A stretch of 64,000 nt of DNA, from NCBI RefSeq assembly GCF_004337475.1, contig NZ_SJZJ01000002.1, positions 62,001 through 126,000 on the forward strand, in the 5' to 3' direction. Source of the stretch: Nocardioides jejuensis. GTDB taxonomy: Bacteria > Actinomycetota > Actinomycetes > Propionibacteriales > Nocardioidaceae. Under the pieces are notes generated by a model. It was not told the origin of the DNA, ran no database searches, and was given only the letters and a program-made list of their open reading frames with translations. Below are positions 4,387 through 36,170 of the stretch, piece after piece; within the stretch, counting starts at the first letter, position 1; each line of letters starts with the position of its first letter. Made by a program: the position numbers and the translations under genes.

Positions 4387-5184
4387 TCAGAGCACCGGCA
4401 TGTCGTAGAAACGGCAAATGCCGCCGAACTCGTCCGCCTGCAGGCTGGCACCGCCCACAAGCGCTCCGTCGACGTCGGCCTTGGCCATGATTCCGCCAAT
4501 GTTGCCGGCCTTGACCGAGCCGCCGTACAGGACGCGTACGGCGTCAGCCGTGGCGTCACCGTGCGTCTCGCGGATCCGCTCGCGGATCGCGTGGCAGACC
4601 TCCTGAGCGTCGTCCGGGGTCGCGACCTCGCCCGTGCCGATGGCCCAGACGGGCTCGTAGGCGATGACGAGCGCGCCGACCTGCTCAGCGGTGAGACCGG
4701 CGAGCGAGCCGTCGACCTGCGCGAGGCAGTGACCGACCTGCTCCCCCGCCTTGCGGACGTCGAGACCCTCGCCGACGCACACGATCGGCGTCATGCCGGC
4801 CTTGATGGTCGCCTTCGCCTTGGCGTTGACGATCTCGTCGGTCTCCGCGTGGTACTCGCGACGCTCGGAGTGGCCCACGACCACGAACGTGCAGCCGAGC
4901 TTGGCCAGCATCGCCGCGGAGATCTCGCCGGTGTAGGCGCCGGACTCGTGCACGGAGACGTCCTGCGCGCCGTACTTGATGCCGAGGCGGTCGCCAGAGA
5001 CGACCGACTGCACCGAACGGATGTCGGTGAACGGCGGGATGACGGCGACCTCGACCCGGGCGAAGTCGTGCTTCTTGTCCGACAGCGTGACCGCGAGCTT
5101 CTGCACCAGGACAACGGCCTCCTGGTGGTTGAGGTTCATCTTCCAGTTGCCCGCCATCAGCGGGACGCGCGGCGCGCGAGCCAT
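4387..5184 (-). CDS. tpiA: triosephosphate isomerase
   Basis: A 265-residue TIM-barrel enzyme interconverting dihydroxyacetone phosphate and glyceraldehyde 3-phosphate. Visible active-site elements: the N-terminal AGNWKMN with the catalytic lysine, VVGHSERRE with the catalytic histidine, and [10 protein letters not shown] with the catalytic glutamate and the flexible loop. [10 protein letters not shown] binds phosphate. Full length. It follows pgk by 3 bp, so it is probably translated from the same mRNA. Confidence 0.98.
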
Positions 5185-29753: not shown

Positions 29754-30206
29754 TCAGGAGAGGCGGCCGGTCAGCTTCCACTGACGGCGGGCATCGAGCC
29801 GGTGCGGCTCCGCCCGGGGGTACGGCGCGGCCTCGTCGTCCCAGGCCTCGATCTCGCCGACCGGCTCGGCCTGGAGCGCGCCACGCACCGCCGGAGTGAG
29901 CGCCTGGACCAGGTCCTCGAGATCCATCGACGCGAGCGGCTCGAGCTTCATCTGGTAGCGCATCATCGCCGCGGCGGAGAGCGTGCCGAGCGCGAGCTGG
30001 AGGCGCACGGTCGAGACGTGCAGGCCCGCGGGTCCCGCGAGCGGCACGAAGACGAGCCGGTTGAGCCGGCGGAAGACCTTCTGGCTGCGGCCCTCGCCCT
30101 CCATCGCCGAACGGATCGTCGCGATGACCGCCGCCTGGGTGCGCTGGTTCTCGCAGAAGCCGAAGAAGCGACGGGTCACCTTCTCGGCGAAGTCGTCCAT
30201 CGTCAC
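29754..30206 (-). CDS. TetR-type C-terminal ligand domain protein without DNA-binding domain
   Basis: A 150-residue helical protein. Residues 5-105 follow the C-terminal half of TetR-family regulators: RRFFGFCENQRTQAAV, a mid helix VFVPLAGPAGLHVSTVRLQL, then MMRYQMKLEPLASMDLEDLV, the usual LA-RY-L-x-EPLAS-x-x-x-x-L segment. The 45-residue helix-turn-helix that should precede it is absent. The GTG at 30206 overlaps the stop of the flavin reductase gene by 4 nt, so the start is natural rather than created by breakage. The tail (AWDDEAAPYPRAEPHRL) is polar. It may be a ligand-binding or dimer-poisoning partner; this is inference. Confidence 0.6.
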   Translation of the reverse strand: MTMDDFAEKVTRRFFGFCENQRTQAAVIATIRSAMEGEGRSQKVFRRLNRLVFVPLAGPAGLHVSTVRLQLALGTLSAAAMMRYQMKLEPLASMDLEDLVQALTPAVRGALQAEPVGEIEAWDDEAAPYPRAEPHRLDARRQWKLTGRLS

Positions 30207-30766: not shown

Positions 30767-31426
30767 GTGACCGAGACCCCCTCCGCTGCCCAGTCGACCC
30801 TGTCCGACGAGCTGCGTGACCTGATCCGTGGCACCAAGGGCTTCATGCCCGAGGACGAGGGGATGCTGCTGCACCGCTGGGCGCTGGCCCAGCTGCCGAC
30901 CGGGCCGGCGCTCGAGGTCGGCAGCTACTGCGGCAAGTCCGCGGTCTACCTCGGCGCGGCGGCGAAGGCGGTCGGCGACGGCGTCGTCTTCGCACTCGAC
31001 CACCACCACGGCTCGGAGGAGAACCAGGCCGGCTGGGAGCACCACGACACCGACGTCGTCGATGCCGAGACCGGCCGCATGGACACCCTGCCCTTCTTCC
31101 GTCGCACCATCGAGCGCGCCGGCCTCGAGGACCACGTCGTCGCGCTGGTCGGCCAGTCCGGCCCGGTCGGCCGCGTCTGGCGTACGCCGCTCGCGCTGTT
31201 GTTCATCGACGGCGGCCACGGTGTCGAGCCCGCGCGCACGGACTTCGAGACGTGGGTGCCGCAGGTCGCCGTCGGTGGCGTCCTGGTCATCCACGATGTC
31301 TTCCCCGACCCCGCGGACGGCGGCCGGCCGCCGTACGAGGAGATCTACCTGCCGACGCTGGCGCGCGGTGACTTCGAGGAGATCGAGGCGCTCGGATCCA
31401 TGCGGGTGCTGCGCCGCACGCACTGA
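30767..31426 (+). CDS. class I SAM-dependent methyltransferase
   Basis: A 219-residue methyltransferase-fold protein. Motif I is ALEVGSYCGKSAVYLGAA (E-x-G-x-x-x-G). FALDHHHGSEENQAG gives the acidic residue after strand 2, and LLFIDGGHGVEPARTDFE matches the Methyltransf_24 class (D-G-x-H). VGGVLVIHDVFPDPADGG follows. Proteins of this class act on small molecules, phenols or sugars; the substrate is unknown. Leaderless GTG start. Monocistronic. Confidence 0.85.
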   Translation: MTETPSAAQSTLSDELRDLIRGTKGFMPEDEGMLLHRWALAQLPTGPALEVGSYCGKSAVYLGAAAKAVGDGVVFALDHHHGSEENQAGWEHHDTDVVDAETGRMDTLPFFRRTIERAGLEDHVVALVGQSGPVGRVWRTPLALLFIDGGHGVEPARTDFETWVPQVAVGGVLVIHDVFPDPADGGRPPYEEIYLPTLARGDFEEIEALGSMRVLRRTH

Positions 31427-31495: not shown

Positions 31496-31521
31496 ATGTC
31501 GCCAAAATGGCAGAAGTCACC

Positions 31522-31527
31522 TAGCGT
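31522..31527 (+). promoter_or_regulatory. -10 box of the secreted-protein pair (leaderless)
   Basis: TAGCGT lies 7 nt before GTG 31535, favouring that start over the ATG at 31496. Confidence 0.55.
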
Positions 31528-31534
31528 GTCTTCC

Positions 31535-32263
31535 GTGATTCGTGGGAACAAGCGTGTACAAGGTGCGCGCGCAGCGCGGGCGTCGGTCGTGGCGACCCTG
31601 CTCCTCGCTGCACCCGTGGTGCTGTCGGGCAGCGCCACCGGATCGACCGCCAGCGGCGGCACGCTCGCCGTGAGCCGCACCTCGGGCATTCCCGGTGAGG
31701 CACTCACGGTCAAGGTCACCGCACTCCCCGGCCCGGCAGCCCGTTCGGTCCGCCTCGACCGCTGCGTGGGCTACAGCGGCTCGACCTGCAGCTACTGGGT
31801 CGCCGTCATGAGCGCCACGACGAGCAACCACGCCTACACGTTCTCCACGCGCGTCCACGCCATGGAGCAGAACCGCTACCGCGTCTACGCCGCCGCCACC
31901 TCGACCGACGGCGCCCGCCTCACGCCGAGCCTGCGCGTCGACGGCCTCCAGCAGGACGCCAGCATCGCGCTGCCGAAGACTGCCACCGTCGGCTCCACGG
32001 TCACGGTGACCCTCGGATCGGGCACCGGCCCGATCCGGGCCGGACGCGAGATGTCGCTGCAGCGCCGCAACGCCGACGGCACCTGGACCTGGGTGGCCGG
32101 CCCCTTCGCGCTCGACAGCACCGGAAAGGCGACGGCGTCGCTCACGCTCGACTCGGCCGGCACCCGGACCTACCGGGCCGTCGCCCGCGACTGGGCCCCC
32201 GCGGGCACCAACACCCTGGTCGGCTGGTTCCCGTCCTTCCCGGCGACGGTGGTCGTCTCGTGA
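31535..32263 (+). CDS. secreted protein with two Ig-like domains
   Basis: A 242-residue exported protein. The signal peptide runs to about residue 35-40 (ASVVATLLLAAPVVLSGSA). Two beta-sandwich repeats follow, the first starting SRTSGIPGEALTVKVTAL and the second ASIALPKTATVGSTVTVTLG; each has the alternating hydrophobic strands of an Ig-like fold. A cysteine pair in the first (RCVGYSGSTCSYWV) may be a disulfide. Its stop overlaps the GTG of the next secreted protein as GTGA, so the two are made together. In related genomes similar Ig-like modules are fused to the family-16-type domain; here they are separate. Function unknown. Confidence 0.65.
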   Translation: MIRGNKRVQGARAARASVVATLLLAAPVVLSGSATGSTASGGTLAVSRTSGIPGEALTVKVTALPGPAARSVRLDRCVGYSGSTCSYWVAVMSATTSNHAYTFSTRVHAMEQNRYRVYAAATSTDGARLTPSLRVDGLQQDASIALPKTATVGSTVTVTLGSGTGPIRAGREMSLQRRNADGTWTWVAGPFALDSTGKATASLTLDSAGTRTYRAVARDWAPAGTNTLVGWFPSFPATVVVS

Positions 32264-33087
32264 CCCGCCGCTTCCGCGCGGGCATCGCGACCGCAGCGGC
32301 CGCCCTCGTCGCCGCGGGCCTGAGCCCCTTCATCTCCCCGCTCGGCGGAGCGAACGCCGCGACGACCGCCAGCTCGACGTACGGCTGGGGCGGCGCCACC
32401 GAGGTCTGGGACTGGGAGCGCGGCGAGTCGACCGTCGGCTGGCGCGACTTCGTCGACGGCACCGGTCGCGTCGGGATCTACTACGGACAGCTCGGACTCG
32501 ACAGCGGCCCCGCGTCGTACAACGCGACGGCGACGGGTGACGTCGTCACCTGGCTCGACGGCAACGCCCACAGCCGCGGTCGCTGGGAGTTCCGGATGAA
32601 GTCGAAGCAGTGGGCGACCGCGACGGCGTACCAGGTGCGGCTCGAGCTGGTCCCCGCCGGCACCCTGCCGTCGAGCTGCGGCACGACCGCGGTGACCCTG
32701 GCCAGCTGGAATGGCTACACGAGCAGCACAGCGACCCAGCTCGGCGTACGCAACGGCGCCTCGACCTGGACCCGCACTCCCCTGGCCCTGAGCCAGGCAA
32801 ACGTGTTCCACACCTATGCGGTCGAGATCAAGGACACCGCGATGACGTGGTTCGTCGACGGCAAGGCCGTCGGCAGCCTGACGTCCGCCCAGGCTCCCGG
32901 CGCGTTCACGACCACGCCGCTCGTCCCGCGGCTCGTGCTCGACGGCACCGCCGGGAAGGCGATGACGCACACGCGCGCCACCACGGACTGGGACCGCTAC
33001 TTCAGCCTGGCGAAGGCCGGCTCGACGATCCCGTCGACGACGCCCGCGCTCACCCCAGCGACCACACCGGTCACCGGGATGTGCTGA
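32260..33087 (+). CDS. secreted glycoside hydrolase family 16-like domain, probably non-catalytic
   Basis: A 275-residue exported protein with a Tat-like basic start (MTRRFRAG) and a signal peptide to about residue 33. The rest is a concanavalin-like beta-sandwich of the GH16 type: GRWEFRMKSKQ, then ANVFHTYAVEIKDTAMTWFV and DGKAVGSL are typical GH16 landmarks. The catalytic E-x-D-x-x-E segment expected before the late strands is replaced by VRLELVPAG, so glycan binding rather than cleavage is likely. The C-terminus is Ser/Thr/Pro-rich and ends in a lone cysteine. Its 3' end overlaps the convergent cyclase-like gene by 17 bp. Confidence 0.7.
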   Translation: MTRRFRAGIATAAAALVAAGLSPFISPLGGANAATTASSTYGWGGATEVWDWERGESTVGWRDFVDGTGRVGIYYGQLGLDSGPASYNATATGDVVTWLDGNAHSRGRWEFRMKSKQWATATAYQVRLELVPAGTLPSSCGTTAVTLASWNGYTSSTATQLGVRNGASTWTRTPLALSQANVFHTYAVEIKDTAMTWFVDGKAVGSLTSAQAPGAFTTTPLVPRLVLDGTAGKAMTHTRATTDWDRYFSLAKAGSTIPSTTPALTPATTPVTGMC

Positions 33088-34171
33088 CCTCGCTGCACCC
33101 GCACTCGAGCGCGATCTCCGGGAAGTCCGCGGCGAGCGTCTCGCCGCGCATGATGCCCGAACCCGGCGTGCTGCCACCGAAGCGCTCGCCGAGCGCATCC
33201 ACCGCCAGCAGCACCGCTGCCGCCGTGTACGTCGTGTGCTCGACGGGCCAGTAGACGTTCGGGTTCTCGTTCTCGTAGCCCTCGAGCTCGTAGACCCAGC
33301 CGGTCCAGTAGGAGCCGTCCTCGGCGCGCAGGTGCTGCATGTCCTTGAGCAGGGTGAGGGCGCGCTCGTGGTCGCCGATGGCGTCGAGCGCCATCACCAG
33401 CTCGCAGGTCTCGGCACCGGTCACCCAGGGGTTGGTGTCGACGCAGCGGCAGCCCAGGTCGGGGACGACGAAGTCGCTCCAGCGCGTGGCCAGCAGCTCA
33501 TGCGCCGCTCCACCGCGGACGGCGCCGCCGAGGACCGGGTAGTACCAGTCCATGGAGTACTTCGACTTGTCGGCGAAGCGCTCCGGGTGCTGCCGGATCG
33601 CATGGCCCAGCCGGCCGCCGGCGAGCTCCCACTCGGGCTGCGGCTCGTCGAGGAGCTCGGCGAGCGCGACGCCTGCGCGCAGCGACTGGTAGATCGACGA
33701 GCAGCCGGTCAGCAGGCAGAAGTCGTCCTGCGGCGTCCACTGGATGCCGCCCCAGTCCTGCTGGAGCGAGACCACGAAGTCGAGACCGGCGCGCACGCTC
33801 GGCCAGAGCTCCTGGACGAAGGCACGGTCACGACGGACCAGCCAGTGATGCCACACCCCCACCGCGAGGTACGCCGACATGTTGACCTCGCCGCGGTCGT
33901 CCTCGACCTCGCCGGCGACGATCTTCATCGGCCACGAGCCATCGGCACGCTGCAGGGTCGGCACCCAGCGCAGCGCCTTCTCGGCCGCCTCGACCTGCCC
34001 ACCGACGAGCAGCGCCATGGCCGCCTCGACGTGGTTCCAGATGTCGGTGTGCTCCCCCGTGGTCCACGGGATGCCGCCGTCGGACTCCTGCATGCGCGCG
34101 ATCGATGCGGCCGTCGCGGCCACGTCCTCGGCGGTCAGCACGCCCTCGACGTACGGGATCTGGGGGTGCAT
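33071..34171 (-). CDS. terpene-cyclase/prenyltransferase-like alpha-toroid protein
   Basis: A 366-residue protein of the prenyltransferase/squalene-cyclase (alpha/alpha toroid) type. Repeats: MQESDGGIPW, LQRADGSWPM, SLQQDWGGIQWTP and MQHLRAEDGSYWTGW, each a Gln...Asp-Gly-Gly/Ser-x-Trp unit. There is no DxDD motif of squalene-hopene cyclases, so cyclase activity is not supported. It starts at ATG 34171, overlapping the methyltransferase stop by one base (TGATG). Third gene of the glycosyltransferase-methyltransferase triad. It could act on a polyprenyl or glycolipid substrate; this is inference. Confidence 0.75.
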   Translation of the reverse strand: MHPQIPYVEGVLTAEDVAATAASIARMQESDGGIPWTTGEHTDIWNHVEAAMALLVGGQVEAAEKALRWVPTLQRADGSWPMKIVAGEVEDDRGEVNMSAYLAVGVWHHWLVRRDRAFVQELWPSVRAGLDFVVSLQQDWGGIQWTPQDDFCLLTGCSSIYQSLRAGVALAELLDEPQPEWELAGGRLGHAIRQHPERFADKSKYSMDWYYPVLGGAVRGGAAHELLATRWSDFVVPDLGCRCVDTNPWVTGAETCELVMALDAIGDHERALTLLKDMQHLRAEDGSYWTGWVYELEGYENENPNVYWPVEHTTYTAAAVLLAVDALGERFGGSTPGSGIMRGETLAADFPEIALECGCSEVSTSR

Positions 34172-34929
34172 CAGGCAGCGTCCGGCTTGCGGAAGTAGAG
34201 CACCATCGACTTGCCGATGACCGGGTTGAGCACCTTCTCCGCACCGCGCGTCAGGGTGCTCCAGCCCTTCGTCTTCATGATGTCCCAGACGAGGACCTGG
34301 TGGTACGCCTTCACGAGCGGGTTGTCGTTGTTCTCGACACCGACCGCACACTTCAGCCACCAGTACGGCGCGTGGAGGCCGTGGGCGTAGTCCTTGCCCT
34401 CGAAGATCATCGCGTCGCCGTCGGTGCCGTCGTTCATCCGGCCGCCCTTGGTGACCTTGTCGACGAGCTCGTGGTCGGTGTAGATCCGGATGTGGCCGCC
34501 CTCGGCGTTGTGGTACGCCGACGACAGCTTCCAGTTGATGACCTCGGGGAGCCAGCGGGGCACCGTGATCGCCATCGTGCCGCCCGGACGCAGGACACGG
34601 ATGAGTTCCTTGATCGCGTCGACGTCGCGGTGGATGTGCTCGAGGACCTCGGCACAGACCACGCGGTCGAACTCGCCGTCGGCGAAGGGAAGCGACAGCG
34701 CGTCACCCTCCTTGACGTCCGCCTCCGCCTCGGCCGGCGCCTCGCCGACCTCCTTCATCGCGTGGAACAGGTCGCGGACCTGCGAGAGCTCGTCGGCGTT
34801 CTGGTCGAAGGCAATGACGTTGCCGCCACGGCGGTAGATCTCGAACGAGTGGCGACCGGCGCCGGCCCCCATGTCGAGGACCCGGTCGCCAGCCTTGAGG
34901 CCCAGGCGGTCGAAGTCGACGGTCAGCAT
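34171..34929 (-). CDS. class I SAM-dependent methyltransferase (Methyltransf_11 type)
   Basis: A 252-residue methyltransferase. Motif I RVLDMGAGAGRHSFEIYRRG, then VIAFDQNADELSQV (acidic strand 2), GDALSLPFADGEFDRVVCAE and VLEHIHRDVDAIKELIRVLR. A long C-terminal part (WWLKCAVGVENNDNPLVKAY) likely forms the substrate pocket. TGATG overlaps join it to the glycosyltransferase upstream and the toroid protein downstream, so all three are translationally coupled. Substrate unknown, perhaps the product of the glycosyltransferase. Confidence 0.88.
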   Translation of the reverse strand: MLTVDFDRLGLKAGDRVLDMGAGAGRHSFEIYRRGGNVIAFDQNADELSQVRDLFHAMKEVGEAPAEAEADVKEGDALSLPFADGEFDRVVCAEVLEHIHRDVDAIKELIRVLRPGGTMAITVPRWLPEVINWKLSSAYHNAEGGHIRIYTDHELVDKVTKGGRMNDGTDGDAMIFEGKDYAHGLHAPYWWLKCAVGVENNDNPLVKAYHQVLVWDIMKTKGWSTLTRGAEKVLNPVIGKSMVLYFRKPDAA

Positions 34930-36170
34930 CAGTGGTTCTCCTGCTTCTTCTGCTCGATGACCCCGGCCAGGGCCTCAGCGGTGTGCGTGGCGGCGGCGCG
35001 CCAGCTGAACGTCTCGTCGACGCGCTTGCGGCCAGCGGCGCCGTAACGGGCGCGACGCTCGGGGTCGTCGAGCAGTGCGGCGATCGCATCGCGCAGCGCC
35101 TCGACGTCGCCGGGCGGGACGAGGTCGGCGCACAGGCCGTCGGGACCGACGACCTCCGGGATCGAGCCGGCGCGGCTCACGACGAGCGGCGTCTCGCAGG
35201 CCATCAGCTCGACCGTCGGCAGCGAGAAACCCTCGTAGCGCGAGGGGACGACGGCCAGCTCGGCCGAACCCATCAGGGCGACCAGGTCGGTCTGCGTCAG
35301 GCCGCTGCGGAACTCGACCGCGTCGCCGATGCCGAGCTGCTCGATCAGCTTGATGGTCGGGCCGTCCTCCTGAGGCTTGGACACCAGGATCAGGTGGAGG
35401 TCGCGCTCGGTGCGGAGCTTGGCGAACGCCTCCAGCAACACATCGATGCCCTTGAGTGGCGAGTCGGCGCTGGCCATCGCCAGCAGGCGACCGGGCACCC
35501 GCTCGACAACCGGCGGCTGGAACTCGTTGTCCGCGCCGAGGTGGATCACCTCGATGCGGTCGGGGTCCACGCCGAAGTCCTTCACGATGTCGGCGTACGA
35601 CGACTCGCTGACCGTGATCACCTTGCGGGCAGCACGGGCGACCGTGCCCTGCATGCCGAGGAAGCCGTACCAGCGGCGCAGGCTGAGCTTGCGCCGGAGC
35701 GTCTTCGCCGCCGCGATGTCGATCCGGCGGTCGAAGGTGATCGGGTGGTGGATGGCGGTGACCATCGGCAAGCCGAGCTCCTCGACCTCGAGGAGGCCGC
35801 CGCCGAGCACCTGGTTGTCGAGGACGACGTCGAAGTCGTCCTTGCGCTCGCGGAGCAGCTTGATGACGCGCTTGGCGAAGGTGCGCGGCTCGGGGAACCC
35901 GGCCGTGCACATGATCGCGAACTCCTGCACGTCGATCAGGTCGCGGAACTCGCGGAGCTTCGGAATCCGGAACGGGTCGGGCTCGCGGTAGAGGTCGAGG
36001 CTGGGGACCTTGGTGAGCGTCACGCCCTCGTCCAGCTCGGGGTACGGCTGACCGGAGAAGACCTCGACCTCGTGACCGAGCGCAACGAGCTCGCGGCTGA
36101 GGTGGCGGACGTAGATGCCCTGCCCACCACAGTGGGGCTTGCTGCGATACGACAGCAGTGCAATGCGCAT
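34929..36170 (-). CDS. glycosyltransferase family 4
   Basis: A 413-residue GT-B retaining glycosyltransferase. The N-terminal acceptor domain starts MRIALLSYRSKPHCGGQGIY, with GGQG-type phosphate-binding glycines. The C-terminal donor domain has the E-x7-E motif (YEGFSLPTVELMACETPLVV). IPEVVGPDGLCADLVPPGDV is typical of GT4. Sugar donor and acceptor are unknown. First gene of the triad; an AAAGG ribosome-binding site precedes ATG 36170. Actinobacterial GT4 enzymes often build mannosides or envelope glycolipids; the role here is inferred only from its partners. Confidence 0.9.
   Translation of the reverse strand: MRIALLSYRSKPHCGGQGIYVRHLSRELVALGHEVEVFSGQPYPELDEGVTLTKVPSLDLYREPDPFRIPKLREFRDLIDVQEFAIMCTAGFPEPRTFAKRVIKLLRERKDDFDVVLDNQVLGGGLLEVEELGLPMVTAIHHPITFDRRIDIAAAKTLRRKLSLRRWYGFLGMQGTVARAARKVITVSESSYADIVKDFGVDPDRIEVIHLGADNEFQPPVVERVPGRLLAMASADSPLKGIDVLLEAFAKLRTERDLHLILVSKPQEDGPTIKLIEQLGIGDAVEFRSGLTQTDLVALMGSAELAVVPSRYEGFSLPTVELMACETPLVVSRAGSIPEVVGPDGLCADLVPPGDVEALRDAIAALLDDPERRARYGAAGRKRVDETFSWRAAATHTAEALAGVIEQKKQENH

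Follow-up and report, generated by a model that had tools for sequence, protein, structure and literature searches.

A predicted methylmannose polysaccharide gene cluster in Nocardioides jejuensis and its distribution among actinobacteria

Gene content of the locus and identity of the encoded proteins

The DNA analyzed here is a stretch of 64,000 nucleotides from Nocardioides jejuensis (NCBI RefSeq assembly GCF_004337475.1, contig NZ_SJZJ01000002.1, positions 62,001 to 126,000; hereafter, the window), in which three open reading frames (ORFs) on the minus strand are joined by TGATG overlaps at both junctions. The original prediction, made from the sequence alone, described their products as a glycosyltransferase family 4 (GT4) enzyme, a class I methyltransferase, and an alpha/alpha-toroid (barrel) protein with repeated Q..DG..W units but no DxDD, a description that holds. 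A fourth gene of the set, meT1, had been overlooked. As judged from sequence, the window holds a complete cluster for methylmannose polysaccharide (MMP), in which manT, pmeT3, mmpH, and meT1 lie at one locus; the trio occupies 33071-36170 on the minus strand and meT1 30767-31426 on the plus strand, and two other genes separate them.

36170..34929, minus strand: manT, predicted GT4 alpha-(1->4)-mannosyltransferase of MMP elongation, 413 amino acids
34927..34931, minus strand: TGATG overlap of manT and pmeT3, read from the sequence
34929..34171, minus strand: pmeT3, class I S-adenosylmethionine methyltransferase, putative 3-O-methyltransferase of MMP, 252 amino acids
34169..34173, minus strand: TGATG overlap of pmeT3 and mmpH, read from the sequence
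34171..33071, minus strand: mmpH, predicted MMP alpha-endomannosidase with an (alpha/alpha)6 barrel, 366 amino acids
30767..31426, plus strand: meT1, predicted 1-O-methyltransferase of MMP, 219 amino acids (GTG start codon), convergent with mmpH

The start of mmpH was assigned to the ATG at 34171, and the upstream GTG at 34360 was not chosen. A consensus scan of the locus for promoters and terminators was uninformative, with no promoter-like site and one terminator-like match (1.2 expected).

These gene families are those of a published pathway. According to Maranha et al. (2023; PMC9883506), the MMP cluster of the mycobacterial species M. hassiacum and M. smegmatis comprises MeT1, MmpH, pMeT3, and ManT. 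In that system, MmpH cuts MMP into tetra-/penta- and hepta-/octa-mannosides, ManT extends the oligomers from GDP-mannose (guanosine diphosphate mannose), MeT1 caps free reducing ends, and pMeT3 is the likely 3-O-methyltransferase (PMC9883506). Growth of an M. smegmatis mmpH mutant was slowed at 15 °C (PMC9883506). In M. hassiacum the genes are numbered consecutively (04402-04405), in agreement with the order manT-pmeT3-mmpH in the window, including the position of pmeT3 between the other two. The system is thus of an already described kind, and the suggestion that these genes form an undescribed isoprenoid system, with no characterized pathway, falls away.

A phmmer search of the PDB with the barrel protein gave a single entry at a threshold of E 1, namely 7qsj (E 2.8e-115, residues 5-360), and the protein is 56% identical to M. 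hassiacum MmpH; the depositors' paper assigns 7QSJ to MmpH and 7QSG to ManT (PMC9883506). An AlphaFold2 model of the window protein (predicted local distance difference test score, pLDDT, 94.5) matches 7qsj_A with template modeling (TM) scores of 0.91/0.96 (Foldseek), and 7qsj with Z 55.5 and a root-mean-square deviation (rmsd) of 1.2 Å over 342 aligned residues. Its repeat units read Q28ESDGGIPW, Q74RADGSW, Q137QDWGGIQW, and, at 282, RAEDGSYW. Alignment to M. hassiacum MmpH showed that Asp47, Trp49, Asn101, Thr163, Met215, Tyr219, Glu262, and Glu265 are retained, so that both the catalytic base (Glu262) and the putative acid (Asp47) are kept. Other (alpha/alpha)6-barrel glycosidases and related enzymes share this fold, including glucodextranase (1ug9, Z 30.4), dextran dextrinase (9ju0, Z 35.0), and enzymes of glycoside hydrolase (GH) family GH63, at an identity of 11-17% among the matches listed. 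GH15 and GH125 have been named as further fold relatives, GH125 being exo-acting, whereas MmpH is an endo-mannosidase (PMC9883506). Two other assignments for the barrel protein were rejected on score: an oligosaccharide amylase (NCBIfam TIGR01577, E 1.2e-7, but 30.7 bits where 820.7 is the cut-off) and a bacterial rhamnosidase barrel (Pfam, 17.2 bits against 24.5).

For the GT4 enzyme, the best PDB match is 7qsg (phmmer, E 1.8e-144), a chain that the PDB labels D-inositol 3-phosphate glycosyltransferase and that its depositors named ManT. The window protein is 58% identical to M. hassiacum ManT, matches Pfam Glycos_transf_1 (E 1.8e-32), and retains Gly15, His142, Lys240, Glu313, and Glu321; MshA, glycogen synthase, and PimA/PimB were discarded as identities, their matches being far weaker than 7qsg. 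The meT1 product matches 6g7d, 6g80, and 6h40, which we take to be MeT1 structures, with E 3.5e-71 over about 200 residues (phmmer). Full-length structure matches are thus available for three of the four proteins: 7qsj for MmpH, 7qsg for ManT, and, presumably, 6g7d for MeT1. The middle methyltransferase matches Pfam Methyltransf_11 (E 6e-20) and is 61% identical to its homologue in L154 (loci and genomes in the comparison carry L and G numbers). This locus has the same trio order with meT1 convergent, and is probably mycobacterial, because its MmpH and ManT are 74% and 80% identical to those of M. hassiacum. Across the mycobacterial and window enzymes, Asp47 and Glu262 of MmpH and His142, Lys240, Glu313, and Glu321 of ManT are shared. 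Homology, predicted fold, and key residues are direct observations, as are the gene linkage and co-occurrence described below.

Distribution and linkage of the four genes

All loci compared were selected for carrying mmpH. Those with named records number 80, the best-scoring of 142; 73 of them carry the name Nocardioides, Marmoricola, Aeromicrobium, or Nocardioidaceae, and 7 are placed in a higher group only. The remainder comprises 20 loci of other genera of the class, drawn from 19 genomes, and 20 outside the class. The trio is adjacent in 78/80, 18/20, and 20/20 of these loci, respectively. This conservation sustains the proposal that the tightly coupled trio serves one product; the part that called this product an isoprenoid or envelope lipid does not stand, as the barrel protein matches the MMP hydrolase MmpH and the GT4 enzyme is closest to ManT. 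A methylated glycan is by far the more probable product.

The exceptions are few. Among the named loci, manT is absent in L100 and L112, whose contig starts within pmeT3; within the class, L169 is truncated by the start of its contig, and L166 is a lone second mmpH copy. Taken gene by gene, the 80 named loci contain manT in 78, pmeT3 in 80, mmpH in 80, and meT1 in 77, the last being missing from the examined stretch in L075, L084, and L124. Wherever measured, meT1 is convergent with mmpH (75/75) and mostly no more than 200 bases away (69/75). It also lies within the examined stretch in 17 of the 20 loci that represent other genera of the class, a single one of which (L167) has it on the same strand as mmpH, and in 18 of the 20 outside the class, where L191 gives weak matches for all but manT. 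The arrangement is not due to chance. As a separate observation, the genome of the lone copy in L166 (G215), which has no manT, pmeT3, or meT1 in the examined stretch, also carries a full cluster (L165).

At the genome level, mmpH was detected in 146 of 147 Nocardioides genomes, including all 134 of the better ones; the closest named relative of the window is Nocardioides phosphati, with an MmpH 95% identical. Matches were found in 195/394 genomes of the class, or 189 after removal of six weak ones (G205, G210, G217, G360, G365, and G374; E 3.3e-5 or worse), and in 48/296 genomes of the phylum, a few of these being weak. Three draws of 394 class genomes were treated as one set, in which the listed genomes agree and most negatives are unlisted. 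Within it, 187 genomes carry both mmpH and meT1, 2 carry mmpH alone, none carries meT1 alone, and 205 carry neither, such that 187 of the 189 mmpH genomes also have meT1. Weak MeT1 matches (G167, G193, G272, G275, G316, G327, G434, G465, and G504; E 8.3e-10 or worse) had been dropped, and G327 is one of the two mmpH genomes counted as lacking meT1. That the genes are so strictly linked is the strongest argument for a single four-gene pathway in Nocardioides as well.

No fifth gene recurred beside the four across families in 44 loci plus the window region, in a search (for example, for a chain initiator) limited to ORFs of at least 100 amino acids, which smaller genes would escape. The next most widespread group, after the four families and without frames overlapping or antisense to them, was found in 8 loci. 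A mobile origin was considered and set aside: the one mmpH record in a plasmid collection is an 11.85 Mb Nonomuraea replicon, which shows no sign of transfer. Among the literature matches listed, whose coverage leaves out most subscription papers, there was no report of the cluster from organisms other than mycobacteria and genera related to them. The near-universal presence of mmpH in Nocardioides, the trio outside the class, and the pairing of mmpH with meT1 are new here, as are the two states of the MmpH active site and the lack of a type I fatty-acid synthase marker in most mmpH genomes, both described below.

Proposed pathway and two states of the MmpH active site

Taken together, the best explanation, which we regard as highly probable, is that the locus represents the four-gene MMP cluster in a Nocardioides species, and that MMP would be made and recycled there as in mycobacteria. 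From the evidence above we infer the reactions, the Nocardioides product, the activity of pMeT3, and the role in the cell. The mature chain, made of 3-O-methylmannose in alpha-(1->4) linkage and located in the cytoplasm, would be cleaved by MmpH to short oligomers, which ManT would elongate with mannose from GDP-mannose; pMeT3 would place 3-O-methyl groups on the chain, and MeT1 would add a 1-O-methyl cap to the free reducing end. Because the oligomers released by cleavage would themselves be extended, methylated, and capped, old chains would serve as primers for new ones. The completed helix is believed to accommodate long acyl chains within a cavity lined by methyl groups.

Several observations weigh against a simple transfer of the mycobacterial pathway. 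The best PDB relatives of pMeT3 are general methyltransferases (E 4.5e-11 at best), and its role as a 3-O-methyltransferase is still putative in the published system (PMC9883506). In the literature searched, most subscription papers lying outside coverage, no product report links methylmannose polysaccharide and Nocardioides. Position 293 of ManT, where Asp has been proposed to contact the guanine of GDP-mannose (PMC9883506), is Gln in the window and Asp, Glu, Gln, or Asn among homologues. MmpH of the window carries Asn50, Met102, and Tyr315, in place of Asp50, Phe102, and Trp315 in M. hassiacum, and its substrate or rate may accordingly differ. Finally, 150 of the 189 mmpH-bearing class genomes have no marker of type I fatty-acid synthase (FAS-I), the enzyme system to which MMP has been tied.

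The substitution at position 50 bears on catalysis. In M. hassiacum, Asp47Ala and Asp50Ala were both drastically impaired, the acid was left undecided between them, and the active-site residues were stated to be highly conserved in several genera; no mention of an Asn50 form was found in the available portions of the paper (PMC9883506). Residues were counted here over 118 MmpH rows, a set weighted toward close relatives of the window (77 rows), with L082, L144, L149, and L190 excluded because the matched mmpH frame contains a stop. (These in-frame stops within the best mmpH match may reflect assembly error or decay.) Glu262 is present in 118/118 rows and Asp47 in 117/118. Asn50, by comparison, is found in the window, all 77 named-record rows, 5 of the 20 from other genera of the class, and 17 of the 19 outside the class. 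M. hassiacum and the other 15 class rows have Asp50, as do 2 rows outside the class. Beyond the near relatives of the window, the position is about evenly divided (22 Asn and 17 Asp in 39 loci).

Residue 315 differs between the two states: Trp accompanies Asp50 in 18/18 rows, whereas the 100 Asn50 rows have Tyr (90), Phe (5), or Trp (5). As 100 of 118 rows carry Asn50, the Asp50/Trp315 pair, although important in M. hassiacum, was not used to define the family. On the tree, position 50 requires 4 changes, 2 of them forced by starred branches, and the independent pairs are too few for a covariation test of positions 50 and 315; their co-evolution is offered as a suggestion. Because many homologues in intact clusters do without Asp50, the alignment favors Asp47 over Asp50 as the candidate catalytic acid. 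Natural enzymes with Asn50 and Asp47 are ready-made test proteins for the question left by the authors of the structure.

End product, cellular role, and neighboring genes

The readings of the product that compete with an MMP of the mycobacterial kind differ greatly in probability. That the barrel protein is a terpene cyclase, and the product a methylated, glycosylated isoprenoid or envelope lipid, is exceedingly improbable. DxDD is the defining motif of class II terpene cyclases and squalene-hopene cyclases, and it is not present in the window protein. The terpene Pfam models do give signals, but below threshold (SQHop_cyclase_N, 20.2 bits against a cut-off of 26.2; Prenyltrans, 16 against 26.5), and drimenyl diphosphate synthase appears among the Foldseek matches, mostly at TM 0.52-0.54 with rmsd of at least 7, compared with TM 0.91 for MmpH as top match. 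Such distant barrels may account for the initial impression of a terpene cyclase. Motif, Pfam cut-offs, and fold comparison, together with the MmpH sequence match and the glycosidase residues Glu262 and Asp47, effectively rule out a terpene cyclase or prenyltransferase identity, and with it a false lead to an undescribed terpenoid system is removed and the genes are named. Far less remote, though still unlikely, is the same architecture with another end product, namely an alpha-mannan, methylated or acylated, whose length, methylation, or acetylation is not that of mycobacterial MMP and which is handled by the Asn50/Tyr315 form of MmpH. The window and most of the rows counted have Asn50, mostly with Tyr315, and ManT position 293 is variable; moreover, an acetylated MMP has been reported from Streptomyces griseus (AMMP; PMC9883506, PMC4555173), a methylmannose polysaccharide from outside the mycobacteria. 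ManT of M. hassiacum and S. griseus are 53% identical (PMC9883506). The remaining catalytic residues and all four genes are nevertheless kept, which speaks against this reading. Asp50 occurs only with Trp315, yet there are too few independent pairs to make covariation of this.

The role of MMP is a separate matter. Modulation of fatty-acid synthesis via FAS-I has been proposed for polymethylated polysaccharides (PMC4555173), and MMP may serve FAS-I in the clade of the window as proposed for mycobacteria, an option we find doubtful. The genome of the window (G000) carries the FAS-I marker PF08354 in an open frame of 2968 amino acids, and marker-bearing class genomes have mmpH more often than the others (39/52 versus 150/342; odds ratio 3.84, p 4e-5, uncorrected for kinship). 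Against this, PF08354 is found in only 3 of 147 Nocardioides genomes (G000, G118, and G135; 3/134 of the better ones), compared with 146/147 for mmpH, so that by this marker the cluster needs no FAS-I. Across the class, 39 of the 189 mmpH genomes have the marker, and 13 of 52 marker-bearing genomes are without mmpH; a match below cut-off in G475 was excluded. As a control, PF08354 was detected among 14 genomes only in Corynebacterium glutamicum, which has FAS-I. The association is thus positive but, as far as one marker shows, without dependence. Because most mmpH-bearing genomes are without the marker, MMP would appear to have a role beyond FAS-I; if the 150 genomes truly lack FAS-I, as the marker suggests, FAS-I modulation cannot be its general role. 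In the genome of the window, the stretch noted for this FAS-I, rare in the genus, is C8:45058-46032 (locus L174).

A broader proposal, which we put forward tentatively and would not yet favor, is that the phylum acquired the MMP cluster long ago as a module with a FAS-I-independent role, and that a widespread second form of MmpH, with Asn50 (mostly with Tyr315), relies on Asp47 as its sole general acid, perhaps in recycling a methylmannan with other decorations. The residue-level variant and the distribution of the genes in this way bear on two open questions, the role in relation to FAS-I and the identity of the catalytic acid.

Unlike the cluster of M. hassiacum and M. smegmatis, that of the window clade has two unrelated genes between mmpH and meT1.

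31496-32263, plus strand: orfA, between mmpH and meT1
32260-33087, plus strand: GH16-like gene, overlapping orfA (PF00722, 23.6 bits against a cut-off of 22, a weak match)

Both are probably outside the MMP pathway. The pair was found in 1 of the 80 named loci (L074, N. phosphati) and, among the remaining loci compared, only in L021 (genome G135) and L022 (N. phosphati). It is therefore shared by the window, N. phosphati, and G135; the FAS-I marker is limited in the genus to the genome of the window, G118, and G135. Elsewhere in the window, the ORF at 29754-30206 on the minus strand contains a TetR C-terminal-like domain (TetR_C_16, 50.7 bits).

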